Shown here: positions 175-56,093 of the stretch, in pieces
Position numbering within the stretch: the first letter of the stretch is position 1
Layout of the letters: each line of letters begins with the position of its first letter
DNA from: an uncultured Metabacillus sp.
GTDB lineage: Bacteria > Bacillota > Bacilli > Bacillales > Bacillaceae
Direction of reading: 5' to 3'
NCBI RefSeq assembly: GCF_947503125.1
Contig: NZ_CANNCR010000019.1
Location: 1-64,000, forward strand
DNA length: 64,000 nucleotides
Position numbers and translations under genes: made by a program
Notes under the pieces: generated by a model
What the model was told of the DNA's origin: nothing
What the model saw: only the letters and a program-made list of their open reading frames with translations
The model's database searches: none

Positions 175-219
175 GGTGTCTAGCTCCAGCGCCTAGCCCC
201 TCTAGGGTCTTGCGCTTTT
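175..219 (+). repeat. Structured intergenic repeat, copy A (internally deleted)
   Basis: Head TGTCTAGCTCCAGCGCC is joined almost directly to the tail TTGCGCTTTT, so the inner hairpin modules are missing. The AT-rich lead-in (about 150-174) resembles the lead-in of copy B at about 2000-2030. See copies B to K. Confidence 0.75.
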
Positions 220-220
220 C

Positions 221-403
221 TTAATCGCTTAGTCTCTTCCCAGCGATTGCGTAATTTTCCTTTTTCATTTCTTCAATAAAAACCGCGATTTTTTCTGCAG
301 GGGCACCGGTTGTTTCCGAAACAGCAGCTGTTACTTTTTCAACTAAAGCTCTTTTTTGGTCATCTGTTCTACCTTCAAGCATTTTTACTGTTACATATGG
401 CAT
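221..403 (-). CDS. ywhB: 4-oxalocrotonate tautomerase family protein YwhB
   Basis: A 60-residue protein starting MPYVTVKMLEGR. The family's catalytic base is the N-terminal proline exposed after Met removal, and Pro2 is present. Length and sequence fit the small 4-OT subunits that assemble as hexamers and catalyse enol/keto tautomerisation; the physiological substrate of the Bacillus enzyme is not known to me. A ribosome binding site (AAAGGAGAG on the minus strand) precedes the ATG. It is divergent from ywhC, in the same neighbourhood as in B. subtilis. Confidence 0.92.
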   Translation of the reverse strand: MPYVTVKMLEGRTDDQKRALVEKVTAAVSETTGAPAEKIAVFIEEMKKENYAIAGKRLSD

Positions 404-618
404 TGTTTCTCTCTCCTTTACTAATTATGTATGAAAGGGCTTTGTCCCATTTTGACGGATTGTCAACCCCCGACTGCTTTATTATGCTTAATGACAAGCA
501 AATGAATGCGAATAAGCCCTTAATTATAGTATACTTTAAGCAAGTTGGTTTGTATAACATGTTAGGCTGGCAGGACTCATTTTTGAATGTTGAACTTTTA
601 AGTCTAAAGGAGAGAGAG

Positions 619-1302
619 ATGGACAATTTAAGTAGTATAAATAGTTTCCTGGCATTTCCGCTTGAAATGATTCCATATGTTGTCATTACCCTCATGATCG
701 CTTTCACGTTCCATGAATATGCTCATGCCTATGTAGCTTATAAATTTGGTGACCCAACGGCAGAGAAACAGGGCAGATTAACGCTTAATCCAATAGCCCA
801 TTTAGATCCGTTTGGAACGCTGCTCATCTTTATTGCAGGCTTTGGCTGGGCGAGACCTGTTCCTGTGAATCGCTATTTCTTTAAGAAGCCGCGCCTGGCA
901 GGTGTTCTTGTCTCGGTTGCAGGTCCGCTAAGCAATTTGGTGATTGCTTTCCTTGGAACATGTATTTGGTACATACTCTTGGCAACAAATGCAATAACAG
1001 CACTACCTAATCAATATGTAGAAGGGCTGCAGGATTTTTTCAATATATTCGTTTCACTAAATGTGATGCTGTTTATTTTTAATCTGCTTCCATTTCCGCC
1101 ATTGGATGGTTATCGAATCATTGAAGACCTTGCACCGGCAAATATTCGCGCAAAAATGACTCAGTATGAGAGCTATGGCATCATTATTTTTTTAATACTT
1201 GTCATTACACCACTTGATGCATATATCATTCAGCCGATTTTTGATGTTGGCCGAACAGCTGTGATGAATATGTTTCACTTTCTGTTAAGTCCAATATTAT
1301 AG
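619..1302 (+). CDS. ywhC: Site-2 protease family M50 membrane metalloprotease YwhC
   Basis: The start is ATG 619 with AAAGGAGAG just upstream; the frame stays open to position 310, but the extension is not protease-like. The product has 227 residues. The zinc motif HEYAH sits in the first hydrophobic segment, and the second conserved motif appears as NLLPFPPLDGYR in a later membrane segment, giving the Asp ligand typical of M50 proteases. Several membrane spans are evident. The family cleaves transmembrane substrates; no substrate is known to me for YwhC. ywhD follows 26 bases later, so the two are probably cotranscribed. Confidence 0.9.
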   Translation: MDNLSSINSFLAFPLEMIPYVVITLMIAFTFHEYAHAYVAYKFGDPTAEKQGRLTLNPIAHLDPFGTLLIFIAGFGWARPVPVNRYFFKKPRLAGVLVSVAGPLSNLVIAFLGTCIWYILLATNAITALPNQYVEGLQDFFNIFVSLNVMLFIFNLLPFPPLDGYRIIEDLAPANIRAKMTQYESYGIIIFLILVITPLDAYIIQPIFDVGRTAVMNMFHFLLSPIL

Positions 1303-1328
1303 GAAGAGATGATGAAGGAGGTATCTTA

Positions 1329-1841
1329 ATGGAAGAGAACAAAAAGAAAAAAAGTATTGGTTTTAATATCATTAAAAATGATCCAACAGACGGCCATGGC
1401 GGGTTTGGTGTCGGGGCATTAAGTCTTGATAATGTCTCCCCTGTGTTTATTGATATTGAAGAAGGTGAGGCCTTTGTTGATATCGGGGCCATGCATGCTA
1501 GAAGTGTTGTTGAAAAGGGGATAAAATTCCTGCCGAATAAAGAGGATGTCCCTAATGGAAAGCCTTATTGGCTAGTCTGGGTGACGATCGACCGCAAGTT
1601 AGATGGACCGTATTATGCAGGGGTCACTGCTTGCGAATTGACGGTTAACCGTGAAATAAGAAGAGGATACAAATCACTTCCTGAACATGTGAACCGGATG
1701 GATAAATCGTTAAAACGTCATATTATTGTTGATCATATGGATGACCGTTCAAAGGAAATCCTTGCTAGCTTCTTAAAGAAACATGATCATAAAATGTGGG
1801 ATCTTTCTGAGCAAAAATTAAAAGATGATTTAAACGCATAG
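1329..1841 (+). CDS. ywhD: YwhD family protein
   Basis: A 170-residue soluble protein with AAGGAGG upstream of ATG 1329. The sequence (GFNIIKNDPTDGHGGFGVG near the N terminus) matches my memory of the conserved Bacillus YwhD family, which has no established biochemical role. There are no membrane segments or signal peptide. It lies directly behind the M50 protease gene, the conserved ywhC-ywhD order, and a bidirectional terminator follows at about 1945. Confidence 0.9.
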   Translation: MEENKKKKSIGFNIIKNDPTDGHGGFGVGALSLDNVSPVFIDIEEGEAFVDIGAMHARSVVEKGIKFLPNKEDVPNGKPYWLVWVTIDRKLDGPYYAGVTACELTVNREIRRGYKSLPEHVNRMDKSLKRHIIVDHMDDRSKEILASFLKKHDHKMWDLSEQKLKDDLNA

Positions 1842-1944
1842 GAATTTTGTCAAAAGTGTGACAGTTTCGTGAACAAATTGGTAAATTCTTGTGGTTCTTC
1901 ATTAAAATTAGTAGACTAAAAATACAGTTATAAAACTAGGACAT

Positions 1945-1982
1945 AAAAAATCCCGAACCTTAAGCAGTTCGGGGTTTTTTAT
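1945..1982. terminator. Bidirectional intrinsic terminator
   Basis: The hairpin CCCGAAC...GTTCGGGG is flanked by A6 on the left and T6 on the right, so it can terminate both ywhD and leftward pbpG transcription. Confidence 0.85.
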
Positions 1983-2029
1983 GTCTTTTCAAAGTTTAAG
2001 AAAGTATAACTTTTTGTTACTTAGTATTT

Positions 2030-2210
2030 GTGTCTAGCTCCAGCGCCTAGCCCCGAAGCACAGGACGTGCAAGTGCAGTCAAGAGATAAGGACGCCCTAG
2101 TTTTTGACTGCCTCTAGGGTCTAGCCACTCATGAATTGAAGGCAAAGAACGCCTTCTATTCATGAGCGTCTTATTTGCCCTAGGCTGAGCAAGGCGCTTG
2201 CGCTTTTGTT
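2030..2210 (+). repeat. Structured intergenic repeat, copy B
   Basis: Head TGTCTAGCTCCAGCGCC, a GCACAGGACGTGC module, a GCAGTCAA...TTGACTGC hairpin, a hairpin with arms CTCATGAAT/ATTCATGAG around GAAGGC/GCCTTC, and tail AAGGCGCTTGCGCTTTT. Head AGCGCCT pairs with tail AGGCGCT to close the structure. It lies end to end with copy C, and together they fill the ywhD-pbpG gap (1842-2381). Confidence 0.88.
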
Positions 2211-2211
2211 C

Positions 2212-2380
2212 TAATATCAGAATTTATATATTTTCTTAACATAGCTTGCGTTTCTGAATCTAGCTCCAGGCGCCATCGGCTCGAGGTCATAAGTCAAACA
2301 GGAATTGAAGGTAAAGTACACCTTCTATTCCTGTTCGCCTTATGCTTGTCGCCGAATGCTTAGCGCCTTGCGCTTTTTTT
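2212..2380 (+). repeat. Structured intergenic repeat, copy C
   Basis: It shares about 140 bp without a visible difference with copy J (39222 onward), including the AT-rich lead-in TAATATCAGAATTTATATA. Its hairpin arms are ACAGGAAT/ATTCCTGT. The tail TTGCGCTTTTTTT abuts the pbpG stop codon at 2382-2384. Confidence 0.9.
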
Positions 2381-2381
2381 A

Positions 2382-4445
2382 TTACCACCATTTAAACATC
2401 CGATCAAACCAACTGTTCTTTTCTTTTTTATGATCTTGCTTCTTTTCTTCCTTGTTTTTTGTTTGATGCTCTTGGCAATATTCTGTAGGCTCTGTGCCTT
2501 CAATATAATAGGTTAATCTTCGAACAGGACAATCTTTTGTAGCAAGCTTGCCGCTGGCAGGGTTTATATAGACGCCAACAACGCCATCAGGCGGACGGAA
2601 TGCTCTGACCGATTCATCTTCCAACGCTTGTTCCATGAATTTTGCCCATATGGTTTTTGCGTAGCTGCGCTCTTGAACAAGATCGATTGTCTCGTCCTTG
2701 TCATAACCCGTCCACACTCCTGCTGCAAGCTGCGGAGAGTAACCAATCATCCAGCTATCTGTTGACGTCGTCCCGGACTTACCCGCATAGTCTCTAGTTA
2801 AAATATCTGCAATGCTTTGTCCTGTGACAGATGTATAATCATTTAAAGCTGTGTCAAACATCCCTTTCATCATATGGGTGGTTACAAAAGCAGCCTGCTC
2901 ATTTAGAACCTGTTCTTTTGTTTTATCGGCTTTATAAATGACTTCACCATTTGCATCTTCCACCTTTGTGATAAAGGTAGGTTTAATTTTTTTTCCGCCA
3001 TTTCCAAGCATGCCATACGCATTTACCATCTCAACTAAACGTACAGAGGATGTTCCTAATGCTGCTGACGGAACCTTTTTCATTTTAGAAGTAAGGCCAA
3101 ACAAATCCCCTGACTGGATTAGCTTCTCCATCCCAAGGAAAAGATGAGTTTTTACGGCGAAAATATTGTCAGATAATGCAATTGCCTGAAGCATTGTAAT
3201 AAAGTCATTCGCATAATACCCATTATAGTTGCTTGGCTTATAGGTAGCATTGCCGTCATCATAAGAAAATGTCGTTGGCTCACTCATCATTTCTGTAGAT
3301 GGTGTAAACCCATTTTCGACCGCCGTATAATATAATAACGGCTTAATTGTTGAGCCTGGCTGCCTTTTTGCCTGTGTTGCACGGTTGAACGGACTTTGTT
3401 CGTAATCGCGTCCACCTATCAATGCTTTTACATAACCCGTTTTTGGTTCAATCGCGATAAAAGCAGCTTGAATCTCTGATTTCTTTTCGATCGAATTTTT
3501 CACAAGATCCTCAGCAATTTTTTGCATTTCAGGATCTAAGGTTGTATAAATTTTCAATCCTTTTGTTTCAATGATTTGTGCATCGATATTTAATTGATCT
3601 GCCAATGAGCTCATGACAGCATCTTGAAAATACGGGGCGATTCCTTTTTGAACATTTTCTTCTTTTGTCTTATAAGTTAGATTTTCCTGTAAGGCTTGAT
3701 TCAGCTGCTTTTCTGTGATATACCCTTCTTTTTCCATCGTTTCCAAAATCATCGTTTGGCGTTCCTTCGCTCTTTCTTGGTTTGCATAAGGAGAATAAAC
3801 GCTCGGACCCTTTGGAATGCCTGCCAGCATCGCGGCCTCTGCTAAAGATAATTCACTGGAGTTTTTTCCAAAATAATATTTTGCTGCTGCTTCAATTCCG
3901 TATACACCATGACCGTAATAAATCGTATTTAAATAACCTTCTAAAATCTCGTCCTTACTGTAATTTTGTTCAAGACGTATTGTATAAAAGGCTTCCCGTG
4001 CTTTTCTTATCCATGTTTTTTCATGCTCTAAAAACAGATTTCGGGCATATTGCTGGGTAATCGTACTAGCTCCCTGAACCTTTGCCATTGCTCTTAAATC
4101 TGCCAGGGCAGCCCCAGCAATCCGTTTATAATCAAACCCGTTATGATCATAAAAGCTGCGGTCCTCAATCGCAATAGTTGCTTGCAGGACATGTTCGGAA
4201 ATATCATCTAGATTCACCCAATACCGCTTCTGTCCATTATGCATTTCCCCGATTTTTGACCCGTCACTTGCATAAATAATTGTTGATTGTGGCACTGTTA
4301 AGGAAGGAGGACCTTGCCATTTTGCATATAAGACAATACTTAAAATGATCGTCGAAAAAAAGACTAATAATAGCAAACTAATAAAAATAAGTGCACGGAT
4401 GGTTTTTAATGTAATTCTAATTCGTTTAGGTGTGATCACATCCAT
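2382..4445 (-). CDS. pbpG: Class A penicillin-binding protein (PbpG/YwhE-like)
   Basis: A 687-residue bifunctional peptidoglycan synthase anchored by an N-terminal membrane segment (about residues 17-41). The glycosyltransferase domain shows EDRSFYDHNG (Glu94 catalytic) and GASTITQQYARN. The transpeptidase domain shows STIK (Ser365, Lys368), SDN (425-427) and KSGT (556-559). A lysine-rich tail ends the protein. The position next to ywhD and speE matches B. subtilis pbpG, a sporulation-associated class A PBP; orthology is inferred from that synteny. The start ATG has GGAGGTGAG upstream. Confidence 0.93.
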   Translation of the reverse strand: MDVITPKRIRITLKTIRALIFISLLLLVFFSTIILSIVLYAKWQGPPSLTVPQSTIIYASDGSKIGEMHNGQKRYWVNLDDISEHVLQATIAIEDRSFYDHNGFDYKRIAGAALADLRAMAKVQGASTITQQYARNLFLEHEKTWIRKAREAFYTIRLEQNYSKDEILEGYLNTIYYGHGVYGIEAAAKYYFGKNSSELSLAEAAMLAGIPKGPSVYSPYANQERAKERQTMILETMEKEGYITEKQLNQALQENLTYKTKEENVQKGIAPYFQDAVMSSLADQLNIDAQIIETKGLKIYTTLDPEMQKIAEDLVKNSIEKKSEIQAAFIAIEPKTGYVKALIGGRDYEQSPFNRATQAKRQPGSTIKPLLYYTAVENGFTPSTEMMSEPTTFSYDDGNATYKPSNYNGYYANDFITMLQAIALSDNIFAVKTHLFLGMEKLIQSGDLFGLTSKMKKVPSAALGTSSVRLVEMVNAYGMLGNGGKKIKPTFITKVEDANGEVIYKADKTKEQVLNEQAAFVTTHMMKGMFDTALNDYTSVTGQSIADILTRDYAGKSGTTSTDSWMIGYSPQLAAGVWTGYDKDETIDLVQERSYAKTIWAKFMEQALEDESVRAFRPPDGVVGVYINPASGKLATKDCPVRRLTYYIEGTEPTEYCQEHQTKNKEEKKQDHKKEKNSWFDRMFKWW

Positions 4446-4477
4446 CTTAGCTCACCTCCAATCGGTTTTTCTTTTCT

Positions 4478-4727
4478 TAGGAAATTATAAAATTCTTGAA
4501 CTGTGGATAAGCGCTCACGTACCAGCTCCGAAGCACAGGATGTGCAAGTGCAGTCAGTGCGACAGGACGTCGCGTTTTTGACTGCCAGCGCCTATCGCCT
4601 ATCAAACTTCAGATCATCTCCCTACGATAAGTCAACATCGGTTCGCTTCGCTTACCGTGTTTCCTTTATCTCAGTCGATGCTCCTCCAGTTTGTACGGCG
4701 ATGACCAAGGCGCTTGCGCTTTTGTTC
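4478..4727 (+). repeat. Structured intergenic repeat, copy D (long variant)
   Basis: The lead-in TAGGAAATTATAAAATTC and GAACTGTGGATAAGC is shared with copy K (55899). It contains the GAAGCACAGGA...GTGCAAGTGCAGTC module, then a variant core running from CTTCAGATCATCTCCC to CCAGTTTGTACGG, and tail AAGGCGCTTGCGCTTTT. It accounts for most of the 482-bp pbpG-speE gap (4446-4927); the open frames inside it are not genes. Confidence 0.88.
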
Positions 4728-4808
4728 TTTCCAGACATAGATACTATTAGCCATTATTAGTTTTTTATTAGTTTTTTAAACATTTTGCGAAAAGTCATGA
4801 TTTTTTTC

Positions 4809-4836
4809 TTGATTTTTTGCTAGATTCATCTATAGT
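4809..4836 (+). promoter_or_regulatory. Candidate sigma-A promoter for speE
   Basis: TTGATT (4809-4814), a 16-bp spacer and TATAGT (4831-4836), about 90 bp upstream of speE. Confidence 0.5.
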
Positions 4837-4927
4837 TTTAAAAGGAATAATGAAAAGTTTTCCGGATGTTCTGAACAACTCCCGGTTAAAATATAGTAGA
4901 GCTTAAGGCTGAAAGGATGGTAAAAAC

Positions 4928-5758
4928 ATGAGTGAATTATGGTATACAGAAAAGCAAACAAAGAATTTTGGAATCACATTAAAAATTAAACAGACGTTAC
5001 ATACAGAACAAACTGATTTTCAATACTTAGAAATGGTTGAGACAGAAGAATTCGGCAATATGCTTTTCCTTGATGGTATGGTTATGACATCTCAAAAGGA
5101 CGAATTTGTTTATCACGAAATGGTGGCACATGTTCCTTTGTTTACACACCCTAATCCAGAAAATGTGCTTGTTGTCGGCGGCGGGGACGGCGGCGTCATC
5201 CGTGAAGTTCTTAAGCACCCTCAGGTTAAAAAAGCAACGCTTGTTGATATTGATGGCAAGGTAATCGAGTATTCAAAAAAATTCCTGCCTGAAATTGCTG
5301 GAAAGCTTGATGATCCGCGTGTTGATGTAAAAGTAGGGGACGGCTTCATGCATATTGCAGAAAGCGAAAACGAGTATGATGTCATCATGGTTGATTCGAC
5401 AGAACCAGTTGGACCAGCTGTAAACCTATTTACGAAAGGCTTCTATGCAGGAATTTCAAAAGCACTTAAAGAAGACGGTATTTTCGTTGCGCAAACGGAT
5501 AATCCTTGGTTTACACCAGAATTGATTACAAATGTTCAACGTGATGTAAAGGAAATCTTCCCGATTACACGCCTTTACACAGCGAACATTCCAACATATC
5601 CAAGCGGTTTATGGACATTCACGATCGGTTCAAAAAAATATGATCCGCTTGAAGTAAGCGAAGACCGCTTCCACGAAATTGAAACAAAATATTACACAAA
5701 AGAATTGCACAAAGCTTGCTTCGTCTTACCGAAGTTTGTAAGTGACTTAATTAAATAA
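4928..5758 (+). CDS. speE: Spermidine synthase (polyamine aminopropyltransferase)
   Basis: A 276-residue enzyme that transfers aminopropyl from decarboxylated S-adenosylmethionine to putrescine. The N-terminal beta domain is followed by the Rossmann-type core with the nucleotide loop [12 protein letters not shown], the acidic VDID strand end, and DSTEPVGPA, the catalytic aspartate loop. Length is normal for Bacillus SpeE. An AAGGATGG site precedes ATG 4928. speB follows after a repeat copy, so agmatine to putrescine to spermidine is encoded here, as in B. subtilis. Confidence 0.96.
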
Positions 5759-5760
5759 AA

Positions 5761-5936
5761 ACAAAAGCGGAAGCGCCTCGTTCATCCTAGGGCAAATAAG
5801 ACGATTTAGAATAGAAGGCGCTCATTGCCTTCAGTTCTAAATTGGCTAGATCCTAGAGGCAGTCAAAAACTAGGGCGTCCTTATCTCTTGACTGCACTTG
5901 CACGTCCTGTGCTTCGGGGCTAGGCGCTGTAGCTTG
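5761..5936 (-). repeat. Structured intergenic repeat, copy E (inverted orientation)
   Basis: This is the reverse complement of the B-type element. It starts AAAAGCGGAAGCGCC and ends GGGGCTAGGCGCTGTAGC. Read on the minus strand, its hairpin arms are ATTTAGAA/TTCTAAAT with inner GAAGGC/GCCTTC, different bases from the other copies but still complementary. It separates speE from speB by 239 bp. Confidence 0.88.
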
Positions 5937-5997
5937 ACAATAAAACTTAGTAAAGTGAGGGAATCGTTCTCTCACTTTTTTAAGGAGGAAAAAGAAC

Positions 5998-6879: not shown

Positions 6880-6894
6880 GCGATCTTATATACC

Positions 6895-6928
6895 AAAAGA
6901 GAAGTGTGTTTGCAGCACTTCTCTTTTT
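6895..6928 (+). terminator. Intrinsic terminator after speB
   Basis: The stem AAAAGAGAAGTG/CACTTCTCTTTT is followed by T. Confidence 0.85.
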
Positions 6929-7240: not shown

Positions 7241-7256
7241 AGGGAGGATGAAAAAA

Positions 7257-7991: not shown

Positions 7992-8004
7992 GAATAGATT
8001 TAAA

Positions 8005-28250: not shown

Positions 28251-28300
28251 ATTAAAAGATAAATTAGCTTCAAATTTATAAAATGCTAGAATAAACGAAA

Positions 28301-28405
28301 AAGTTGCAAGATTATTCCTCAAAGTTGCAAAATTCTCTTCTAAAGTTGCAAAAAAACCACTAATAGTTGCAAGATTTTGAATCAAAGTTGCAAAATCCTC
28401 CTAAA
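28301..28405. repeat. Five-unit tandem array with exact 21-bp period
   Basis: AGTTGCAA begins at 28302, 28323, 28344, 28365 and 28386, exactly 21 bp apart; the unit consensus is AAAGTTGCAARATT plus a variable C/T-rich end. It is non-coding, between the icmF terminator and the rpoE promoter. No insertion or deletion breaks the register. Confidence 0.92.
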
Positions 28406-29149: not shown

Positions 29150-29268
29150 TTGACTTTCCCTTTTCAACTAGGTAGAATCTATTTTGGGCTCTTAAAAAAG
29201 CATTCGTTTGTATTTAGTATACAATTACAGCTCCCTTTCAACTTGTTTGAAAGGGGGCTTTCTATTTT
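29150..29268 (+). promoter_or_regulatory. pyrG promoter and CTP-sensing attenuator leader
   Basis: Promoter TTGACT (29150-29155), 17 bp, TAGAAT (29173-29178); the transcript should start at GGGC (29186-29189). A terminator follows with 5' arm AGCTCCCTTTCAA (29229-29241) and 3' arm TTTGAAAGGGGGCT (29246-29259), then T-rich sequence. This is the B. subtilis pyrG design, in which low CTP causes reiterative G addition at the 5' end and the G-run pairs with the C/T-rich arm to block termination. The mechanism is transferred from that system; the elements are seen directly. Confidence 0.88.
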
Positions 29269-29395
29269 TATGTAGAAAAAGAAGGTTTTTAATGATTGTT
29301 AGTGGATGCGGAATTGCTCGATTTTATACATCGTGAGCATGGTGCTTTTAGCTTGTTCAAAAATAAATAAGTTTATGATTTGAATTGGGTTTCAA

Positions 29396-29571
29396 TGTCT
29401 AGCTCCAGCGCCTAGCCCCGAAGCACAGGACGTGCAAATGCTGTCAGTGTGACAGGATGTCTCGTTTTTGACTGCCTCGAGGTCACAAGCCAATCAGGAA
29501 TTGAAGGTAAAGAACATCTTCTATTCCTGAACGTCTTGTTGCCCGAGGCCGAGCAAGGCGCTTCCGCTTTT
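29396..29571 (+). repeat. Structured intergenic repeat, copy F
   Basis: A B-type element (head TGTCTAGCTCCAGCGCC, GCACAGGACGTGC module, hairpin arms TCAGGAAT/ATTCCTGA, tail AAGGCGCTTCCGCTTTT) sitting inside the pyrG leader between the attenuator and the pyrG ribosome binding site. Confidence 0.88.
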
Positions 29572-33746: not shown

Positions 33747-33918
33747 CTATCAGAATTTTTATATATTTTCTTAACCATAGCTTGCGTTTCTGAATCTAGC
33801 TCCAGGCGCCATCGGCTCGAGGTCATAAGTCAAACAGGAATTGAAGGTAAAGAACACCTTCTATTCCTGTTCGCCTTATGCTTGTCGCCGATAGGCAGGC
33901 GCCTTGCGCTTTTTTTAT
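33747..33918 (+). repeat. Structured intergenic repeat, copy G
   Basis: C/J-type element with lead-in CTATCAGAATTTTTATATA, closing stem AGGCGCC and ATCGGC pairing with GCCGAT and GGCGCCT, hairpin arms ACAGGAAT/ATTCCTGT, and tail TTGCGCTTTTTTT. It and copy H are the only recognisable content of the 967-bp fbaA-murZ gap (33601-34567). Confidence 0.9.
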
Positions 33919-34222
33919 TTGATTAAACTCTGACCTCTTTATGATCGTTAATCCCCAAACCACAAAAGTTGGTATTTTTTTCTTAAAAGAAGATTTCTTT
34001 GTAGTAAAACGTTGTTGTCCTGCTTAATAGATGGTTTAATAGTAAGAGATCCTATTTTTAAAAACGAATAAATGGTTTGTTCATGGTGGCTGAAAAAAAC
34101 AAACGTAAAGGAAGTTTTATAAATCATTTAAATAATGTATTTCCAAAGGCATAAAAGGAAATAAAAGAGATAACAGCTTGTATTTTTTAGAAGTAAGAAG
34201 ATATAAATTGGTATTAGTTTTT

Positions 34223-37753: not shown

Positions 37754-37761
37754 GGATTGTG

Positions 37762-37786
37762 GAGCAAGGCGTTTCCGCTTGTGTCC
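37762..37786 (+). repeat. Repeat fragment (isolated tail module)
   Basis: GAGCAAGGCGTTTCCGCTTG matches the tail of copy F without a head, 9 bases after rho. It is probably a remnant of an older copy. Confidence 0.55.
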
Positions 37787-37820
37787 AGAGAAAAAGCACA
37801 ATTTTTTTGAGCATAGTGTT

Positions 37821-37960
37821 GGTGTCTAGCTCCAGGCGCCATCGGCGAAGCACAGGACGTCGCGTTTTTAACTGCCTCTAGGGTCTAGTCAAATCGGAAT
37901 TAAAGGTAAAGAACATCTTCTATTCCGATTCGCCTTATGCTTGTCGCCTTGCGTCTTTCT
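37821..37960 (+). repeat. Structured intergenic repeat, copy I
   Basis: Head GGTGTCTAGCTCCAGGCGCC, a shortened GAAGCACAGGACG module, hairpin arms AATCGGAAT/ATTCCGATT, and tail CTTGCGTCTTTC. It fills the middle of the 356-bp rho-rpmE gap. Confidence 0.86.
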
Positions 37961-38109
37961 AGTAAAATTTAACTTCAGCTTGCTTTTACTCTTAGCACTT
38001 GTTATAATTTCATCATGTGCTTTTCTAGAAATGATATCGTCAATCGGACGAGTCACCTAGAATATTTAACTCTGTTTCAGATGATTCAGGGCGGAAGGAG
38101 ATGAAAAGA

Positions 38110-39221: not shown

Positions 39222-39391
39222 TAATATCAGAATTTATATATTTTCTTAACATAGCTTGCGTTTCTGAATCTAGCTCCAGGCGCCATCGGCTCGAGGTCAT
39301 AAGTCAAACAGGAATTGAAGGTAAAGTACACCTTCTATTCCTGTTCGCCTTATGCTTGTCGCCGATAGGCAGGCGCCTTGCGCTTTTTTTA
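39222..39391 (+). repeat. Structured intergenic repeat, copy J
   Basis: It appears identical to copy C for about 140 bp from TAATATCAG onward, with the G-type end GCCGATAGGCAGGCGCC and tail TTGCGCTTTTTTT. The IS200-type element begins directly behind its tail. Confidence 0.9.
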
Positions 39392-40135
39392 TGGTTTCGA
39401 AAACCCCTGGCTATGCCGGGGTTCTAAAGAGCTTCAAGCGTGGTATTAAAAAAACCTCACTTCACATGGTAGGATAAAATTGGTTTCCCGACCACTTTAT
39501 CTCGCCATAGAAGGAGGTATGCCCTTTGAAGGACATGAATAGTTTAGCACACACAACATGGAATTGTAAGTACCACATTGTGTTTGCACCAAAGTACAGA
39601 AGACAAATTATTTATGGAAAATACAAAAAGAGTATTGGACAGATCATCCGGGATTTGTGTGAACGAAAGGGTGTTGTCATTCATGAAGCCAATGCTTGTC
39701 CCGAGCACATTCATATGTTAGTAAGTATCCCACCAAAATTAAGCGTGTCTCAATTCATGGGTTACTTGAAAGGAAAGAGCAGTCTCATGATTTTCGATAG
39801 GCATGCGAATTTAAAGTATCGATATGGAAATCGAAAATTTTGGTGCCGTGGCTTCTATGTTGATACAGTAGGCCGAAATAAAAAGCAAATACAAGAATAT
39901 ATTAGAAATCAGCTGGCAGAAGACTACCGAGCTGACCAGTTAACATTGTTCGAAGAGTTTGATCCGTTCACAGAAGAAAAAAATAAAAAGAAATAGCGAA
40001 ATTCTTTAGAATTGGTGAGTGAATGTGGTGCAAAAGGGAAACCTTTCAGTGGGCCTTTAAGGCCAAGGCCGGTAAGAGAGGCTTTCAGCCGCAGAGCAAG
40101 CCACCAGTTCACACTGGTGGTTTTGATTTTCGGAA
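39392..40135 (+). mobile_element. IS200/IS605-family element carrying only tnpA
   Basis: The left-end hairpin AACCCC-T-GGC/GCC-GGGGTT (39402-39423) and right-end hairpin CCACCAGT/ACTGGTGG (40101-40120) flank an intact HUH transposase. No terminal inverted repeats and no tnpB are seen, as expected for the IS200 group. The exact cleavage sites are not determined, so the ends are approximate. A 5' leader hairpin (39474-39500) precedes the ribosome binding site. Confidence 0.8.
39526..39996 (+). CDS. tnpA: IS200-type transposase TnpA
   Basis: 156 residues from TTG 39526, 8 bases after AAGGAGG (ATG 39535 is the alternative). The HUH motif is HIH (His61, His63) and the nucleophile is Tyr125 in QIQEYIRNQ. 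Such single-tyrosine transposases move single-stranded DNA by recognising subterminal hairpins. The frame is uninterrupted and length is normal, so the enzyme may be active. Downstream sequence to about 40135 is non-coding and GC-richer than its surroundings, with a strong right-end hairpin. Confidence 0.93.
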   Translation: MKDMNSLAHTTWNCKYHIVFAPKYRRQIIYGKYKKSIGQIIRDLCERKGVVIHEANACPEHIHMLVSIPPKLSVSQFMGYLKGKSSLMIFDRHANLKYRYGNRKFWCRGFYVDTVGRNKKQIQEYIRNQLAEDYRADQLTLFEEFDPFTEEKNKKK

Positions 40136-43495: not shown

Positions 43496-43630
43496 TTCGC
43501 CGATAAATTTTGGATTTCGCTGATATATTTTAAATATCGCCGATATATTTTTAAATTCGCCGATAAAATGAATTTTTCGCTGATATATTGGCCGAATCCG
43601 CCGATAAAACAAGAGAAGTCGCTGATATCT
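43496..43630. repeat. Seven-unit tandem array with 20-21-bp period
   Basis: The core CGCYGATAWA recurs with GATA at 43502, 43522, 43542, 43562, 43582, 43603 and 43624 (steps of 20, 20, 20, 20, 21, 21). Units mostly alternate CGCCGATAAA and CGCTGATATA, separated by AT-rich spacers. It is non-coding, between prmC and spoIIR, and unrelated in sequence to the array at 28301. Confidence 0.9.
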
Positions 43631-48504: not shown

Positions 48505-48536
48505 TTTCATCGCTCCCATTCAACTAGAATAATAGA

Positions 48537-49880: not shown

Positions 49881-49905
49881 AATCTCACTTCCTTTTGTAT
49901 TGTAG

Positions 49906-49919
49906 TGGTATCGCTTACA
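49906..49919 (-). promoter_or_regulatory. CcpA cre site in the gudP leader
   Basis: Minus-strand TGTAAGCGATACCA fits TGWAANCGNTNNCA at every fixed position, 26 bp upstream of gudP and about 90 bp downstream of its promoter, where it could act as a roadblock. Confidence 0.7.
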
Positions 49920-50003
49920 AAAGACAAAGAAAAACAGGTTCAAATTTTATAAGTTTATTATAAGGGCATCTCTCCTTTTTGAAGAAATTTTCAAAATATT
50001 ATT

Positions 50004-50039
50004 TTGTCTAATAGTAAGACAAATAAATTTGATTGTCAA
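50004..50039 (-). promoter_or_regulatory. gudP promoter with overlapping operator
   Basis: On the minus strand TTGACA (50034-50039), 17 bp, TACTAT (50011-50016). The operator palindrome TTGTCT-N7-AGACAA (50004-50022) covers the -10. Confidence 0.75.
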
Positions 50040-50099
50040 TCATTTTCCAAGGTGAAAAATTGATAGGTTTTATTTTTTCAAAAATAGTAAAACTTCTTG

Positions 50100-50135
50100 T
50101 TGAAACATTCGTCTATTTGTCTTACAATAAAACAA
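50100..50135 (+). promoter_or_regulatory. kdgD promoter with overlapping operator
   Basis: TTGAAA (50100-50105), 17 bp, TACAAT (50123-50128). TTGTCTTACAATAAAACAA (50117-50135) covers the -10, the same geometry as the divergent gudP promoter. Confidence 0.72.
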
Positions 50136-50158
50136 AACGAAAAGGAGGAGGAATGGTT

Positions 50159-51091
50159 GTGAATCAATTTCGCAATTCGCCATCTGGAATTTTAGGATTT
50201 CCAATTGCTCCATTTACAGTAAATAATAAGCTTGATGAAAAGTTGCTTGCCCAAAATATTCAGTTTTTACTTAATGAAGGGCTTGAAGCGATCTTTGTCG
50301 CATGTGCAGCTGGAGAATATCCTTCATTAAGTAAAGAGGAATATGAAGCAATGGTAGAGGTAGCTGTGACTGTAACTAATGGAAAGGTTCCTGTTTACAC
50401 AGGAGTTGGCGGCAATATCCAAACTTCTTTGGAATTTGCCGAGATATCAGCTAAAAAGGGTGCAGATGGTTATTTAATATTACCGCCATATCTGGTAACA
50501 GGGGAGCAATCAGGTCTTGCAGATTATTTCAAAACGATTGCAGAAAGTACAGATTTAAACGCCATTGTTTACCAGAGAGATCAGGTTTCTTTATCAGTGG
50601 AAACATTGGAAACGCTTGCTAAGATACCGCAGGTTGTTGGTGTAAAGGATGGACTGGGGAATATGGAGTTAAATACGCTTCTTACGCAAACCTTTAAACA
50701 GCGATTTGGCTGGCTAAATGGCATGCCATTGGCTGAAGTGACGATGCCGGCCTATGTTCCGCTTGGATTTAACTCTTACTCATCAGCAATTTCAAATTAT
50801 ATCCCGCATATCTCTAGAATCTTCTATCAATCCGTTTTAAACCAAAATCAAGAAACGGTGGATGATCTTTATCAGCATGTCATCTTACCAATCAACAACA
50901 TTCGCCGTAAGCGGAATGGATATGCCGTATCTCTTATTAAAGCCGGGATGGAAATCATGGGTCTTCCTGTAGGGCAAAACGTCAGAAAACCGATTCAGCC
51001 AGTGGAAAGAGAGCATTATGTAGAATTAGAAACGATTTTGAAACAGGCATTGGATCGATATCCAAAACCAATAACAGCTAAATTACTTTAA
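50159..51091 (+). CDS. kdgD: 5-dehydro-4-deoxyglucarate dehydratase
   Basis: About 310 residues from GTG 50159 ([15 protein letters not shown], the family start); the ATG two codons earlier is possible. AAGGAGGAGG lies upstream. DapA-superfamily TIM barrel with YLILPPYL and the Schiff-base Lys in [10 protein letters not shown]. It decarboxylates and dehydrates 5-dehydro-4-deoxyglucarate to 2,5-dioxopentanoate. It forms an operon with gucD, 16 bp apart. Confidence 0.94.
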
Positions 51092-51107
51092 AAAAGGGGA
51101 TGAGCAA

Positions 51108-52571
51108 ATGGTCGTAACAGTTGAGACAAAAACATATCTTAATTTTATCAATGGTGAGTGGGTGACATCGATTAGTAATGAAGTGGAAAAAAGCTTGAAT
51201 CCGGCAAATAAGGATCTGGTTGTAGGCTATGTGCAAAAATCCGCTAAAGAGGATTTAGATTATGCTGTAAAGTCTGCCAAGGAAGCGAAGGAGGCATGGC
51301 GGAAGCTTTCTGGAGCTGAACGGGGAGAATATTTATACAAAGCAGTTTCGATCCTTGAAAAACGAATCGATGAAATTGCTGAATGTGCAACGAGTGAAAT
51401 GGGAAAAACACTTGCCGAAACGAAGGGTGAAACAGCTCGCGGCATTGCTATTTTAAAGTATTATGCTGGAGAGGGGATGCGCAAAGTAGGGGATGTGATT
51501 CCTTCAACAGATCCAACTGCCCTCATGTTAACAACAAGGGTGCCGCTTGGCGTTGTTGGGGTAATCACACCTTGGAACTTCCCGATTGCGATTCCAATCT
51601 GGAAAATGGCTCCTGCGCTTGTATATGGGAACACTGTTGTGATTAAACCGGCGACAGAAACAGCGATTACCTGTGCAAAAATTATCGAGTGCTTTGAAGA
51701 AGCGGGATTCCCTCCTGGGGTTGTCAATATGATTACAGGCCCTGGCAGCGTCGTAGGTCAAGGGATTGCGGATCATAAGGATGTTAATGGGATAACGTTT
51801 ACTGGCTCAAACAAAATTGGAAAGCAAATTGGTCAGGCAGCTCTTGCAAGAGGAGCGAAATATCAGCTTGAAATGGGAGGGAAAAACCCTGTTATTGTTG
51901 CTGCGGATGCCGATTTAAGCCTTGCGGTAGATGCGGTCATCGCAGGTGCTTTCCGTTCAACCGGACAAAAATGTACAGCGACTAGCCGCGTTATCGTTTT
52001 ATCCGAAGTCTATGAGGAATTTAAGCAGCTCCTTGTCGAGAAAACGAAAGAGATTACCCTTGGAGATGGGGCTGACAGCAACACTTGGATGGGACCATGT
52101 GCAAATGAAAGCCAGCTTCATACCGTGCTTTCCTATATAAACAAAGGCTTAGAAGAAGGAGCAACACTATTAACCGGCGGGAAACGTGCTGAAGATGGGG
52201 AACTGAAAAAAGGCTATTATGTGGAGCCGACGATCTTTGACAGCTGTACTCCAGAAATGACCATCGTTCAGGAGGAAATTTTCGGGCCGGTGATTGCTCT
52301 GCTAAAAGCAGAATCCGTACAAGAGGCTATTAAACTAGCTAACAATGTAGAATATGGTCTTAGCGCTTCGATTTTTACAGCCAATATCCAAAACCTGTTG
52401 TCATTCATTGAAGATATGGATGCAGGATTAATCCGTGTCAATGCAGAAAGTGCCGGTGTTGAATTGCAAGCACCATTTGGAGGGATGAAAAACTCCAGCT
52501 CCCATTCACGTGAACAGGGAGAAGCAGCGAAGGAATTTTTCACATCGATTAAGACTGTCTTTATTAAATAA
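51108..52571 (+). CDS. gucD: 2,5-dioxovalerate (alpha-ketoglutarate semialdehyde) dehydrogenase
   Basis: 487 residues. Aldehyde dehydrogenase features are NAD-binding [13 protein letters not shown] and FTGSNKIGK, catalytic Glu in LEMGGKNPV and catalytic Cys in [12 protein letters not shown]. It completes glucarate breakdown to 2-oxoglutarate. The context with kdgD fixes the likely substrate; sequence alone would allow other semialdehydes. Confidence 0.93.
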
Positions 52572-52626
52572 ATGTGAGAGGCGGACATTTGTATTTGCGA
52601 ATTGACCTAAAATTGGAGGAAACCTT

Positions 52627-52767
52627 ATGTGGATCATCACGCTGTATTCACAGACAACGATCTCAATGTTTGAATTTGCTTCAGAAAAAGAAGCGAGAGA
52701 GGTCTTCAATAAACTCCAAGGCTGTAAGATTCTTTCTCACGTTATTTACTATAATGATTCTTTTTAA
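52627..52767 (+). CDS. Small conserved-looking protein, 46 aa
   Basis: ATG 52627 lies 7 bases after GGAGG. The product starts MWIITLYSQTTISMFEFASE and ends in a DSF tail after KILSHVIYYND. It looks like a small alpha/beta protein with no membrane segment; similar short proteins near mntP occur in Bacillus as far as I remember, without known function. It is 56 bp after gucD and may be cotranscribed with it or with mntP. Confidence 0.65.
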   Translation: MWIITLYSQTTISMFEFASEKEAREVFNKLQGCKILSHVIYYNDSF

Positions 52768-52780
52768 GTAAAAGAGGAAC

Positions 52781-52817
52781 GAGTAAGGCAAGCGAGCATC
52801 CGCCAATTGCCTTACTC
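52781..52817 (+). terminator. Hairpin after the 46-aa gene
   Basis: Perfect 11-bp stem GAGTAAGGCAA/TTGCCTTACTC but no T-run behind it; termination is uncertain. Confidence 0.45.
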
Positions 52818-52859
52818 CCGCCTCGCATCTCTCTATTGTCATATCAGTTCTAATCCAAA

Positions 52860-52893
52860 TCGGACGTGCATAAAGTTAAATAGGCGTGTCCGA
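52860..52893 (+). promoter_or_regulatory. Hairpin abutting the mntP ribosome binding site
   Basis: TCGGACGTGC/GCGTGTCCGA (10 pairs including two G-U) ends immediately before GGGGG of the mntP ribosome binding site. It does not match the yybP-ykoY manganese riboswitch as I know it. Confidence 0.4.
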
Positions 52894-52904
52894 GGGGGTA
52901 AAAG

Positions 52905-53465
52905 ATGAACATAGAAGCGATCATGGGAGAGTTGCTAACATTACTGATTATGGCACTGGCTTTAGGTATGGATGCATTTTCTGTTGGCCTTGGCATGGGG
53001 TTAATTCGATTAAAGGCCAGGCAAATCTTTTACATAGGAATCACAATCGGCATCTTTCATATATGGATGCCATTAGTAGGGATGTTAATCGGAAAAGCCC
53101 TTAGTGATACATTTGGAACAATCGCAACATTGTTAGGCGGCGGTTTGTTAATCTTGCTTGGTGTCCAGATGGTGTTCGCCTCGTTTAAAAAAGATGAGAA
53201 GCCGTTGATTACACCAGTCGGGTTTGGATTAATTGTATTTGCGCTTAGTGTCAGCCTGGATAGCTTTTCTGTCGGCTTAAGCCTAGGCATTTACGGGGCA
53301 AAAACCGTTCTAACGGTTGTTGTTTTTGGAATCGTAAGTATGGTGTTAACCTGGATTGGCCTGTTAACAGGTAAACGTGTACAGGCATGGTTGGGCTCAT
53401 ATAGTGAAGCGCTCGGCGGAAGCATCTTATTGGCATTTGGTGTAAAATTAATCTTTCCTTTTTAA
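52905..53465 (+). CDS. mntP: Manganese efflux pump MntP (YwlD)
   Basis: 186 residues with six hydrophobic segments. The duplicated motif [14 protein letters not shown] near the start and [14 protein letters not shown] in the second half are the MntP hallmarks; the acidic residues bind manganese. It exports Mn2+ across the cytoplasmic membrane. Equivalent to ywlD between ywlC and ywlE in B. subtilis, here separated from them by inserted genes on both sides. Confidence 0.93.
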
Positions 53466-53467
53466 GT

Positions 53468-53498
53468 AACGACCGGTTGGGAGCAGCCGGTCGTTTGT
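53468..53498 (+). terminator. Intrinsic terminator after mntP
   Basis: ACGACCGG/CCGGTCGT followed by TTGT; moderate. Confidence 0.7.
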
Positions 53499-53670
53499 AA
53501 AGAAAATAACTTCTTTGTAAATTTGTGTAAATATCTACCTGCGTATTTTTTACTAATTAGTGAAAAGGATGGTAGAATATTCAACTATCATATAGTCTTT
53601 TATACCTAATAATAATCCGTTTATTGCTAATAATCCCCTTTATCTAGTTCCATTCGATCGATTATCTCCA

Positions 53671-53724
53671 TTTACAAAACTATTACATTTCCTTAAAAGT
53701 ACATTAAAACTACCAAACTATAAT
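53671..53724 (+). promoter_or_regulatory. PhoP box and promoter of the alkaline phosphatase gene
   Basis: Four hexamers at an exact 11-bp period: TTTACA (53671), ATTACA (53682), TTAAAA (53693), TTAAAA (53704), fitting the Bacillus PhoP repeat TT(A/T/C)A(C/T)A-N5. TATAAT follows at 53719-53724, with no normal -35, as in PhoP-activated promoters. Confidence 0.78.
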
Positions 53725-53759
53725 CAGCCTTGTCACATAAAGATTAGGAGGAATTATTC

Positions 53760-55142
53760 ATGTTTAATAAAAGATTTAAAAAGAAGCTTCTGCCTTTAGC
53801 AGTTATGACTGCTGTCGCTTTTGGTAGTTTAGGAGGAACATTCTCTGTTGCGGAAGCTAAGGAAGCAAAAAATAATGCAAAAATCAAAAATGTCATCTTC
53901 CTTATTGGAGATGGAATGGGTGTTTCATATACCTCTGCATACCGTTATTTGCAGGACAGCAATAACTCAAAATTTGTCGATCGTACAGAGCTTGATAAAT
54001 ATTTAGTCGGCCAGCAAATGACCTACCCTGAGGATCCAGAACAAAATGTAACAGATTCCGCATCTGCAGCCACTGCAATGTCAGCTGGTATTAAAACCTA
54101 TAATAATGCCATTGCCGTTGATAACGATGGATCAGAAGTTAAAACTGTACTTGAAGCTGCAAAGGAACAAGGAAAAGCAACAGGCCTTGTCGCAACATCT
54201 GAAATTACGCACGCAACACCTGCTTCATTCGGATCACATGATCACAGCCGTCAAAACATGAACGCCATTGCGGAGGACTATTTTGATGAGTTAATAAATG
54301 GCGAACATAAAGTGGACGTGCTTCTTGGCGGAGGAACGGACTTATTTATTCGCGATGACCGCAATTTAGTTGAAGAATTTAAAAAGGATGGCTTCAGCTA
54401 TGTCACGAATAAAAATGAGCTGTTAAAAGATGATAACGAACAGGTTCTTGGTTTATTCGCAGAACGCGGAATGCCAAAAATGATAGACCGTACAAAAGAC
54501 ATTCCATCATTAGAAGATATGACAACCTCTGCGATTGATCGTTTAAGTGAAGACAAGGATGGCTTTTTCCTTATGATTGAAGGAAGCCAAATTGACTGGG
54601 CGGGACATGATAATGATATCGTTTCTGCCATGAGTGAAATGGAAGACTTTGAAAAAGCCTTTAAAGCAGCAATTGAATTTGCGAAAAAGGACAAGCATAC
54701 ATTAGTTGTTGCGACAGCTGACCATTCAACTGGCGGTTATTCAATTGGTGCAAATGGCATTTACAACTGGTTTGGCGAGCCGATCAAAGCAGCGAAACGC
54801 ACACCTGATTTCATGGCAAGTGAAATTGCAAGCGGTGCGGATGTAGAAGAAACATTGAAAAAATATATCGATCTTGAATTAACTTCTGAGGAAATTCAAT
54901 CTGTAAAGGATGCTGCTTCTAAAGAAGAAGTAGATATTGATAATGCAATCGAGAAAATTTTCGATAACAGATCGCATACAGGCTGGACGACTGGCGGCCA
55001 TACTGGTGAAGACGTCCCAGTGTATGCATTTGGTCCTGCATCTGATCGATTTGCAGGAAATATTGATAATACGGACAACGCAAAAATTATTTTTGAGCTT
55101 ATAGAAAAAGGCAAAAATAAAACAGTGATTGAAGATAAGTAA
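53760..55142 (+). CDS. phoA: Secreted alkaline phosphatase
   Basis: 460 residues. A signal peptide (LLPLAVMTAVAFGSLGGTFSVAEA) is followed by the mature enzyme. Metal and active-site motifs: IFLIGDGMG, nucleophile Ser100 in TDSASAATAMSAG, THATPASFGSHDHSR, EGSQIDWAGHDND, TADHSTGGY and TTGGHTGEDVPVYAFGP. It releases phosphate from monoesters outside the cell. Expression is expected under phosphate starvation from the PhoP box. It does not belong to the ywl locus in B. subtilis, so it is an insertion here. Confidence 0.95.
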   Translation: MFNKRFKKKLLPLAVMTAVAFGSLGGTFSVAEAKEAKNNAKIKNVIFLIGDGMGVSYTSAYRYLQDSNNSKFVDRTELDKYLVGQQMTYPEDPEQNVTDSASAATAMSAGIKTYNNAIAVDNDGSEVKTVLEAAKEQGKATGLVATSEITHATPASFGSHDHSRQNMNAIAEDYFDELINGEHKVDVLLGGGTDLFIRDDRNLVEEFKKDGFSYVTNKNELLKDDNEQVLGLFAERGMPKMIDRTKDIPSLEDMTTSAIDRLSEDKDGFFLMIEGSQIDWAGHDNDIVSAMSEMEDFEKAFKAAIEFAKKDKHTLVVATADHSTGGYSIGANGIYNWFGEPIKAAKRTPDFMASEIASGADVEETLKKYIDLELTSEEIQSVKDAASKEEVDIDNAIEKIFDNRSHTGWTTGGHTGEDVPVYAFGPASDRFAGNIDNTDNAKIIFELIEKGKNKTVIEDK

Positions 55143-55167
55143 GAAGAATTTTGTAACAGATAGAGAA

Positions 55168-55213
55168 ATAGAAGGGTCTGGCATCTCGCTTTACGTCAGC
55201 TCCTTCTTTTTTA
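55168..55213 (+). terminator. Possible terminator after phoA
   Basis: GAAGG...CCTTC arms around a long loop, followed by T7. Confidence 0.5.
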
Positions 55214-55229
55214 AATGGAGGGTTTTCTT

Positions 55230-55865
55230 ATGAAAAGAACCATTGTTCTTATAGCATTATTATCTGTCATGTTAGTTGCATGTTCGAATAGCAACAACAG
55301 CGGTGCTCCTGAGCGAGAAAAACAAATCGACACCGGGTATTTGGATGACTACTCATCAAACCCGCAGGTAACGGATGATCGAAACTTGCTTGAGGTAGGA
55401 AAATCGGTTTCCGATGAAAAAGGGAAGGCAACATTAAAGGCGATTAATTTTGTTGATAAAGCATACGAAATTGGCCCGATCCAGCTTCGCGTCAAAGATG
55501 CAAAGGTCATCCACCTGCGACCGGATTACAGCCTGATTGATTATTTTCATGTGTTAACACATGAGGAAGAATTCGATTTTACAAAGGTGTTTGTTGAAAT
55601 TGAGAACACATCTGATGAAAAAGTCAGCTTTGCCCCAATCGCGCTGATTAAAACAAGCACAGGTGAGACATTTGATTGGGAAAAAGATATCTATTTGGAA
55701 GATTTAAATGGTGAAATAGCTGGAAAGTCTGCGAAAAAAGGCAACCTGGGCTTTATCATTGATTCTTCGAAGGAGCTTGAATGGATTGAAATCACAACGA
55801 GTGATGTTTTTGATCAAAATCAAAAGAAAATCCATGACTCGCAAAAAATAAAGATTGAATTCTAA
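55230..55865 (+). CDS. Lipoprotein with a DUF4352-like beta domain
   Basis: About 211 residues from ATG 55230, with TGGAGGG upstream. The lipobox is MLVAC, with lipidation on the Cys and the SNSNNSG linker behind it. The remainder is a single beta-rich domain with paired strands (KATLKAINFVDKAYEIGPIQ; FTKVFVEIENTSDEKVSFAP) like the Telomeric/DUF4352 immunoglobulin-like lipoproteins. Function unknown. It is separated from phoA by a weak terminator, so partial cotranscription is possible. Confidence 0.72.
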   Translation: MKRTIVLIALLSVMLVACSNSNNSGAPEREKQIDTGYLDDYSSNPQVTDDRNLLEVGKSVSDEKGKATLKAINFVDKAYEIGPIQLRVKDAKVIHLRPDYSLIDYFHVLTHEEEFDFTKVFVEIENTSDEKVSFAPIALIKTSTGETFDWEKDIYLEDLNGEIAGKSAKKGNLGFIIDSSKELEWIEITTSDVFDQNQKKIHDSQKIKIEF

Positions 55866-55893
55866 AGCATAGGGTCTTCTCTATGCTTTTTTG
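55866..55893 (+). terminator. Intrinsic terminator after the lipoprotein gene
   Basis: AAGCATAG/CTATGCTT followed by T-rich sequence. Confidence 0.85.
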
Positions 55894-55898
55894 TTGTT

Positions 55899-56093
55899 TA
55901 GGAAATTATAAAATTCATTGAACTGTGGATAAGCACTGCGACATCCAGCTCCAGCGCCTATCGCCTAACAAACTTCAGATCATCTCCCTACGATAAGTCA
56001 ACATCGGTTCGCTTCGCTTACCGTGTTTCCTTTATCTCAGTCGATGCTCCTCCAGTTTGTACGGCGATGATCAAGGCGCTTGCGCTTTTGTTC
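55899..56093 (+). repeat. Structured intergenic repeat, copy K (long variant)
   Basis: It shares with copy D the lead-in GGAAATTATAAAATTC, GAACTGTGGATAAGC and the long core from CTTCAGATCATCTCCC to CCAGTTTGTACGG, but lacks the GAAGCACAGGA module. Closing stem AGCGCCT and ATCGCC pairs with GGCGAT and AGGCGCT. Confidence 0.88.

Follow-up and report, generated by a model that had tools for sequence, protein, structure and literature searches.

Modular intergenic repeats of Bacillaceae with a preferred address behind terminator-like hairpins

The first 64,000 nucleotides of contig NZ_CANNCR010000019.1 of an uncultured Metabacillus sp. (the window in what follows) contain eleven related repeats, here called A to K, that lie between genes. 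The repeat family is real and widespread, has features typical of mobile elements and has a preferred address behind terminators. The repeats are probably modular, non-autonomous mobile elements that insert just 3' of intrinsic terminators, in the terminator's orientation. Part of the evidence is positional: in the 5.4-Mb genome from which the window comes, a terminator-like stem ends at the left edge of 104 of 150 copies (69%), compared with 194 of 1840 points (10.5%) taken at matched distances behind 184 repeat-free genes.

Placement behind terminator-like hairpins

Copies were located with a model, R1, built from the eight window copies that carry the inner hairpin module M2. R1 was bound to recover these eight. 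In A, D and K it picks up the tails weakly, and these three are outside the R1 counts. Being palindromic, several window copies also give a weak match on the other strand. Terminators were scored with a self-made detector whose threshold was set once, and a copy counts as having a stem at its left edge if a terminator-like stem ends between -5 and +12 nt from that edge. The 150 copies remain from 175 rows counted by place, after 7 short rows, 3 at locus ends and 15 repeats had been dropped. Control genes, ten points each, were chosen by a simple open reading frame (ORF) rule, and 114 of the 184 have a terminator-like stem within 150 nt. Sorted by the three types of left end, or head, described below, the stem is present for 52/60 H3 copies, 12/16 H2 copies and 40/74 H1 copies; types were assigned by best alignment, and the H3 figure includes weak assignments.

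An earlier count, made with a cruder gene rule, gives 87/125 copies and 198/2210 control points. When a 60-nt window is searched instead of the edge, 93/130 left flanks score, compared with 226/1300 random points and 18/127 right flanks. This last count uses 130 of the 136 copies to which the 175 hits collapse, a few repeated or antisense rows included; the collapse also cost some true H3 copies that are nearly identical, copy J for one, and subsets of 121, 128 and 125 copies enter the other counts. In named genomes, a stem stands before 48/80 copies and at 272/1443 control points.

The upstream hairpins vary from copy to copy and so do not belong to the element itself. Of the 117 copies with a readable left neighbor, 95 lie downstream of a gene read in the same direction, the copy beginning at a median of 79 nt past the stop codon, and an ORF is overlapped in only 4 of 121 copies. 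The preliminary description of the window, which depicted an oriented intergenic family, is upheld in this respect. It also considered a terminator or 3'-end role plausible. As the primary function this is disfavored because a native terminator-like hairpin usually precedes the copy already, and in one relative (G011) the hairpins that precede G and J are present without either repeat. The tail could still serve as a back-up terminator, since it is itself terminator-like.

Might the same distribution arise without targeting? An untargeted mobile element that survives only where it is harmless, behind terminators, would likewise be found in intergenic DNA and mostly 3' of genes, as these copies are. 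Such a safe-harbor filter is nevertheless improbable: the matched-distance points score far below the copies, and H3, the head type with the most near-identical copies, has the tightest fit, which is the opposite of what a slow filter would leave.

Modular anatomy and the eleven window copies

The eleven copies, the hairpins before them and one neighboring insertion element are located as follows (bit scores refer to R1 unless stated otherwise).

112..138, + strand: terminator-like hairpin and T-run before copy A, by direct reading (ACCGGGC..GCCCGGT); the stock scan reports the - strand only
142..219, + strand: copy A, head H1 and tail without inner modules, by reading; the tail is weakly matched by R1
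1952..1979, + strand: terminator-like hairpin before copy B, in three relatives as well; own detector, stock scan on the - strand only
1991..2208, + strand: copy B, H1, M1, M2 and tail; 105.6 bits
2215..2381, + strand: copy C, H3, M2 and tail, stacked behind B's tail; 107.3 bits
4476..4724, + strand: copy D, H2, M1, M3 and tail, by reading, no preceding terminator seen; R1 matches the tail only, 22.2 bits
4532..4596, - strand: M1 of copy D; antisense to the repeat, it matches Rfam RF01690 (Bacillaceae-1) at 35.3 bits, cut-off 35
5763..5952, - strand: copy E (inverted), head, M1, M2 and tail; 97.3 bits
about 5981-5953, - strand: small hairpin and short T-run before copy E, by eye; not flagged by the own detector
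29362..29571, + strand: copy F, H1-like head, M1, M2 and tail, no terminator directly before it; 94.3 bits
33714..33746, + strand: terminator-like hairpin and T-run before copy G; own detector, not listed by the stock scan
33748..33919, + strand: copy G, H3, M2 and tail; 112.6 bits
34190..34346, + strand: copy H, H1-like head, M2 and tail, behind a T-run with no evident stem; 101.8 bits
about 37757-37780, + strand: remnant repeat tail before copy I, by eye
37791..37962, + strand: copy I, head, short M1, M2 and degenerate tail; 86.7 bits
39186..39220, + strand: terminator-like hairpin and T-run before copy J; own detector, not listed by the stock scan
39225..39390, + strand: copy J, H3, M2 and tail; 111.4 bits
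39391..40128, + strand: IS200-type element immediately after copy J's tail, tnpA ORF 39526-39996; Y1_Tnp, 134.8 bits, outer limits by eye
40098-40123, + strand: terminator-like hairpin forming the right end of the IS200-type element; stock scan
55864..55889, + strand: terminator-like hairpin before copy K; stock scan
55894..56091, + strand: copy K, H2, M3 and tail; 99% identical to D over 143 nt

Related repeats are thus present at all eleven places picked out in the preliminary description. Ten of the eleven read on the + strand and all lie outside long ORFs (two chance ORFs of 80-85 amino acids overlap D and H), so that its statements on direction and intergenic position hold as well. Its common head and tail hold in part. 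The head TGTCTAGCTCC is exact in A, B, F and I, has one mismatch in H and two in C, E, G and J, and is replaced by other heads in D and K on direct reading. By itself it is a weak marker, with 17 matches at up to two mismatches where 9.3 are expected (2 of 100 shuffles reach 17). A tail is found in the copies, in the varying forms GGCGCTTGCGCTTTT, AGCGCCTTGCGCTTTT and GGCGCTTCCGCTTTT, and is degenerate in I.

What reading of the copies yields in place of one uniform sequence is a modular family of about 80-250 bp, in which one of three head types is joined to bodies M1, M2 or M3, or to none. The heads, written from the copies, are H1, AAAGTTTAAGAAAGTATAAAATTTTGTACTTAGTTTTAGTGTCTAGCTCC; H2, ...GGAAATTATAAAATTCTTGAACTGTGGATAAGCGC...CCAGCTCC; and H3, TATCAGAATTTATATATTTTCTTAACATAGCTTGCGTTTCTGAATCTAGCTCC. 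The optional module M1 occurs in B, D, E and F and in a short form in I; the inner hairpin M2 in B, C, E, F, G, H, I and J; and the alternative body M3 in D and K, copy A having neither M1 nor M2. The tail is a small hairpin, GCG-loop-CGC, followed by TTTT, and several tails are scored as terminator-like by the stock scan. In other genera and in the relative G014 a repeat can start directly at TGTCTAGC behind another copy's tail (by eye); the long heads are therefore not universal.

Within the window, the own detector scores a stem at the left edge of B, C (which lies behind B's tail), G and J, and none at E, F and H. Hairpins before A and K are seen by eye or by the stock scan, which lists that of K, finds those of A and B on the - strand only and misses E, G and J. 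Copy I follows a remnant tail, H follows a T-run only, and no terminator precedes D or F.

Two side observations concern neighboring types of repeat. Loci L328 and L329 (start near 1500) hold a second type with a similar left end, TATCAGAAAGTATAAAAT, and another body, ACTAAGGCTTTCGCCAT...AAGCCAAGT, likewise behind a T-run and with an H3 copy next to it. At the contig end L354, two tandem TAATATCAGAATTTATATGTTGCCCCTTT units stand behind a repeat tail, an H3-like left end that is apparently iterated.

Spread, insertion edges and a possible mover

At least 146 full-length R1 matches are present in the home genome; this is a minimum, as the scoring covered only 150 of 1023 candidates. At E<=1e-4, R1 is found in that genome, in 20/20 genomes of the same genus, in 4/4 of the same family and in 7/16 of the same order. 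A 37-nt piece of the repeat occurs in 91 genome-contig stretches, and the 80 of these that were examined belong to Metabacillus, Sutcliffiella, Peribacillus, Cytobacillus, Neobacillus, Fredinandcohnia, Niallia and others. The preliminary description had proposed a look at related genomes; the family is there, in all 20 relatives of the genus and in named Bacillaceae. Among 55 H3 heads in the home genome, 29 H3 copies have a common 75-nt core (with one base left free) in different flanks. The repeats are short, non-coding, dispersed and of high copy number, as miniature inverted-repeat transposable elements (MITEs) are. Spread by plasmids or phages is not supported: copy F, the sole query, has no match in either collection.

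Comparison of individual sites in three relatives (G009, G011 and G014) shows old shared copies coexisting with private ones. In G011, copies G and J are absent and their hairpins and T-runs are present. The terminator that precedes B and C in the window is followed there by no more than a short piece of a repeat tail. G011 also lacks D and has another R1 copy, inverted, in the region; its version of E has diverged and is shorter, and variants occupy the places of F, H, I and K. G009 has an H2+M3 copy at the terminator of B and a different repeat at the T-run of H. At 21.92 kb, a short spacer in the window corresponds to two stacked copies in G014. The place of I holds a copy in all three relatives and that of E in G014, and the relatives have R1-type copies at places that are empty in the window. 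Stacking recurs within the home genome, where another repeat's tail forms the left flank of 15/128 copies.

Among 44 H3 copies (of the 55 heads in the genome listing), four flank bases agree on the two sides, along one register, in 10, with 3.8 expected, and five in 3. When the maximum over all registers is taken, P=0.0025 for k=3, and at k=4 and at k=5 none of 400 permutations reaches the observed agreement. A sharp target-site duplication is only weakly supported. These edges bear also on the suggestion that copies enter by T-run homology, through slippage or illegitimate recombination, with the hairpins incidental. Both flanks are T-rich, H3 edges show short microhomology, and copy H sits at a T-run with no evident hairpin. 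That suggestion is very unlikely to be right all the same, for a stem stands directly before the T-run in 104/150 copies, and the head and tail edges of H3 are nearly constant.

The proposed insertion behind terminators can be set out as a scheme. The target would be a hairpin followed by a T-run, and the copy would land 3' of it in the same orientation. Its right end would bring a hairpin and T-run of its own (GCG-loop-CGC-TTTT) and, this end being terminator-like, the host gene would keep its stop signal. Each new copy would then be a new target, and copies and other elements would stack head to tail. We infer that transposition is the cause, and that the responsible enzyme would read the hairpin in single-stranded DNA or in a cruciform. 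The mover is possibly a related HUH (Y1, IS200-like) transposase acting in trans; the suggestion is made because IS200-type elements of the same order occupy the same class of site.

The Y1 transposase gene of the window belongs to just such an IS200-type element, lying directly behind the tail of copy J. By eye, 6/6 IS200-type left ends stand behind terminator-like hairpins (Y1 locus L151, of another type, was not scored). Across 199 genomes of the order, a terminator-like stem lies within 30 nt before the left-end hairpin of 20/22 IS200-type ends and at 76/1200 random points; some by-eye loci are included in this search, 8/30 loci were dropped because no start motif or left end was found by pattern, and the random points are not restricted to gene ends. 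The repeats thus share the insertion-site class of the IS elements, as repeats mobilized by them would. PATEs, to cite the precedent, are ends-only derivatives moved in trans (PMC7290912). The present repeats and the IS200-type elements have in common the terminator-adjacent site and the design with a terminator-like end; by eye the end sequences are unrelated, and no common enzyme is shown.

The near-identical H3 copies and the IS200-type elements lie no more than about twelve bases from a terminator-like stem, a closeness that suggests active targeting; in the papers considered, the accumulation of intergenic repeats 3' of bacterial genes is credited to tolerance or to terminator function. 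Targeting, if true, would provide a rule for insertion sites and would explain the strand bias and the tandem stacks. A partial search of the literature brought up no recognized report of the repeat family or of terminator targeting by IS200, and does not establish absence from print. More generally, and tentatively, terminators might be a landing platform for HUH/IS200-type single-strand transposition in Bacillales, at which IS200 and satellite repeats are both at home, both ending terminator-like, each insertion keeping termination and recreating the target.

A different enzyme must also be considered. Group IIC introns are self-splicing RNAs of kilobase size that carry a reverse transcriptase (RT). 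The present repeats, unlike them, have neither group II ribozyme nor RT. RVT_1 frames of about 424-447 amino acids, a group IIC-like length, occur in several genomes of the genus. Group IIC introns insert behind the stem-loops of terminators or attC sites (PMC7923331), the same target class, and like the present repeats they are found 3' of a terminator. Retro-mobility, or mobilization by the group IIC intron RT, still has little probability: the window gives no match to a group II intron, and a genome from another family of the order (G033) has 50 R1 matches and no RVT_1 match. That the repeats are remnants of group II introns was considered and dropped, with no Rfam group II match in the window and repeats too short for an RT. 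In a separate observation, the head/tail pattern finds one repeat tail at RT locus L173.

A number of observations weigh against insertion behind terminators by a HUH enzyme, and they deserve to be put together. Some concern the hairpins. On the reverse strand, 48/130 left flanks also score in the 60-nt window, terminator palindromes being partly symmetric; in the named genomes, 20/77 windows downstream of a copy score; no edge stem is found by the own detector in 46/150 copies, including 34/74 of type H1; and the window's version of the 21.92-kb site, which carries the stack in G014, has no evident terminator. Others concern the enzyme. By eye, the repeat ends have no likeness to IS200 end hairpins or cleavage sites, which a PATE would share. 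In the 25 genomes searched for both, neither Y1 nor RVT_1 genes track copy number: G011 and G014 have 100 and 89 R1 matches and no Y1 match, and G033 is the RVT_1 case given above. No autonomous element with repeat ends appears among the 30/55 H3 heads and 30/35 listed H1 heads read, several of which are at contig ends, with a flank pattern that misses GGCGCCTTGCGC-type tails. The four-base flank duplication is missing in 34/44 H3 copies, and HUH transposition is not expected to give a short duplication in any case. Finally, none of the copies was seen to move.

Two candidates for an origin or carrier were set aside. An autonomous carrier with an H3 head, a TATCAGAAAGTATAAAAT end or an H1 head is not among the loci read. 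For a RAYT/REP origin, no matching head or tail was found beside Y1 loci with a limited pattern that failed to pick up copy J next to the L157 IS200; a limited test of two RAYT-like loci, L160 and L161, likewise found neither head nor tail.

Hairpin co-variation and kinship with named families

That the hairpin arms co-vary, as first described, is correct: in the eight window copies with M2, double-sided change is seen in 6/18 pairs. The larger alignment of 124 genome copies (90 distinct) has 97.8% of its cells paired, compared with 87.2% in shuffles, and sliding the partner arm lowers pairing to 34.7-54.1%. Double-change cells number 167, compared with 53.4 in shuffles, and fall in six pairs. 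The count of double-change pairs is not above that of shuffles (398/500 reach it), and the 15 pair types lie below the shuffle mean of 16.6. The outer five pairs are made up of few block haplotypes (AACAG, AATAG, CTCAT, ATTTA, AATTG, AATCG and rarer ones), fully paired in 80/90 distinct rows; in two rows the two arms come from different haplotypes, and one-sided intermediates are few among the aligned copies.

The preliminary description went on to read the compensation as selection on a folded RNA or a cruciform; for the RNA, that step is not established. Block haplotypes with few one-sided intermediates are as compatible with template-switch correction of DNA palindromes, or with a small number of mobile lineages, as with RNA selection. 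Pairing is kept, but the copies are a few related lineages, and DNA-level causes may be at work. Within the proposed scheme, the co-varying arms would keep a DNA or RNA hairpin and may in part have arisen by lineage spread or palindrome correction. If the targeting is borne out, a wider caution would follow: co-variation in mobile palindromes should not be taken to prove a functional RNA.

A functional RNA element, that is, a 3'-end structure (terminator, messenger RNA stabilizer or processing site) under selection on its fold, would account for the strong compensatory pairing, for the same-strand position behind genes and for the terminator-like tail. We consider it unlikely. The terminator-like hairpin already present before most copies speaks against it, as do the different copy sets of relatives at the same genes, the near-identical copies in different flanks and the reduction of stem changes to a few block haplotypes.

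The preliminary description gave no named family, and this is true of most of the element: there is no Rfam match over M2 or a whole copy. It does not apply to M1, which in copy D matches RF01690 Bacillaceae-1 just above cut-off on the opposite strand. M1 has the two hairpins of that family, on the opposite strand, but belongs to a larger element in which it may be missing. RF01690 has 25 matches in the home genome, 8 over and 17 below cut-off; one of them, at 75.3 bits, lies at a ribosomal RNA operon. An R1 place lies on the opposite strand within 150 nt of 12/25 of them, that is, in the position of M1 beside M2, so that the RF01690 family and the repeat have common sequence; copy D is a further RF01690 case, without M2. 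The 75.3-bit match itself (L001:730-960, in G000:C65) lies inside 5S-like sequence behind the ribosomal RNA operon. By eye, its flanks look like those parts of the 5S gene at L001:284-399 that surround a loop region, here exchanged for the Bacillaceae-1 hairpins, and another partial 5S-like copy lies at about L001:590-715.

Repeats of comparable kind are known in other bacteria. The bcr1-bcr3 repeats of B. cereus are folding, MITE-like intergenic repeats, often in untranslated regions (PMC3446304), and Bhal-1 of B. halodurans is a 74-bp stem-loop family (PMC2267715). Compared by description and not by sequence, both are like the present repeats in being intergenic and folding; they differ in that no terminator-specific site is mentioned in the passages cited (PMC3446304, PMC2267715). 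In S. pneumoniae, SPRITE is terminator-like and BOX modular, and SPRITE, BOX and RUP are clustered or nested and enriched 3' of genes (PMC3049150, PMC10969869). There the repeat itself is terminator-like, whereas the present copies in addition stand behind a separate terminator-like hairpin. REP elements are extragenic palindromes of 20-40 bp, sometimes clustered, tagged with GTAG/CGTC and mostly head-to-head dimers (PMC3733652). The present repeats are unlike them in length (80-250 bp) and in their head-to-tail stacks and, by reading, have no GTAG/CGTC-tagged palindrome of 20-40 bp.

The window contains other features besides. In an intergenic region at 28278-28400 there are five units containing GTTGCAA at an exact 21-bp spacing; a further repeat copy (L015) has similar units next to it, and so does G011 have them, at about L226:8860-8990. 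At 43496-43589, again between genes, there are four TCGC[CT]GATA units at an exact 20-bp spacing. The Rfam matches over cut-off in the window include a PyrG leader at 29186-29269 and an L31 ribosomal protein leader at 38070-38100.

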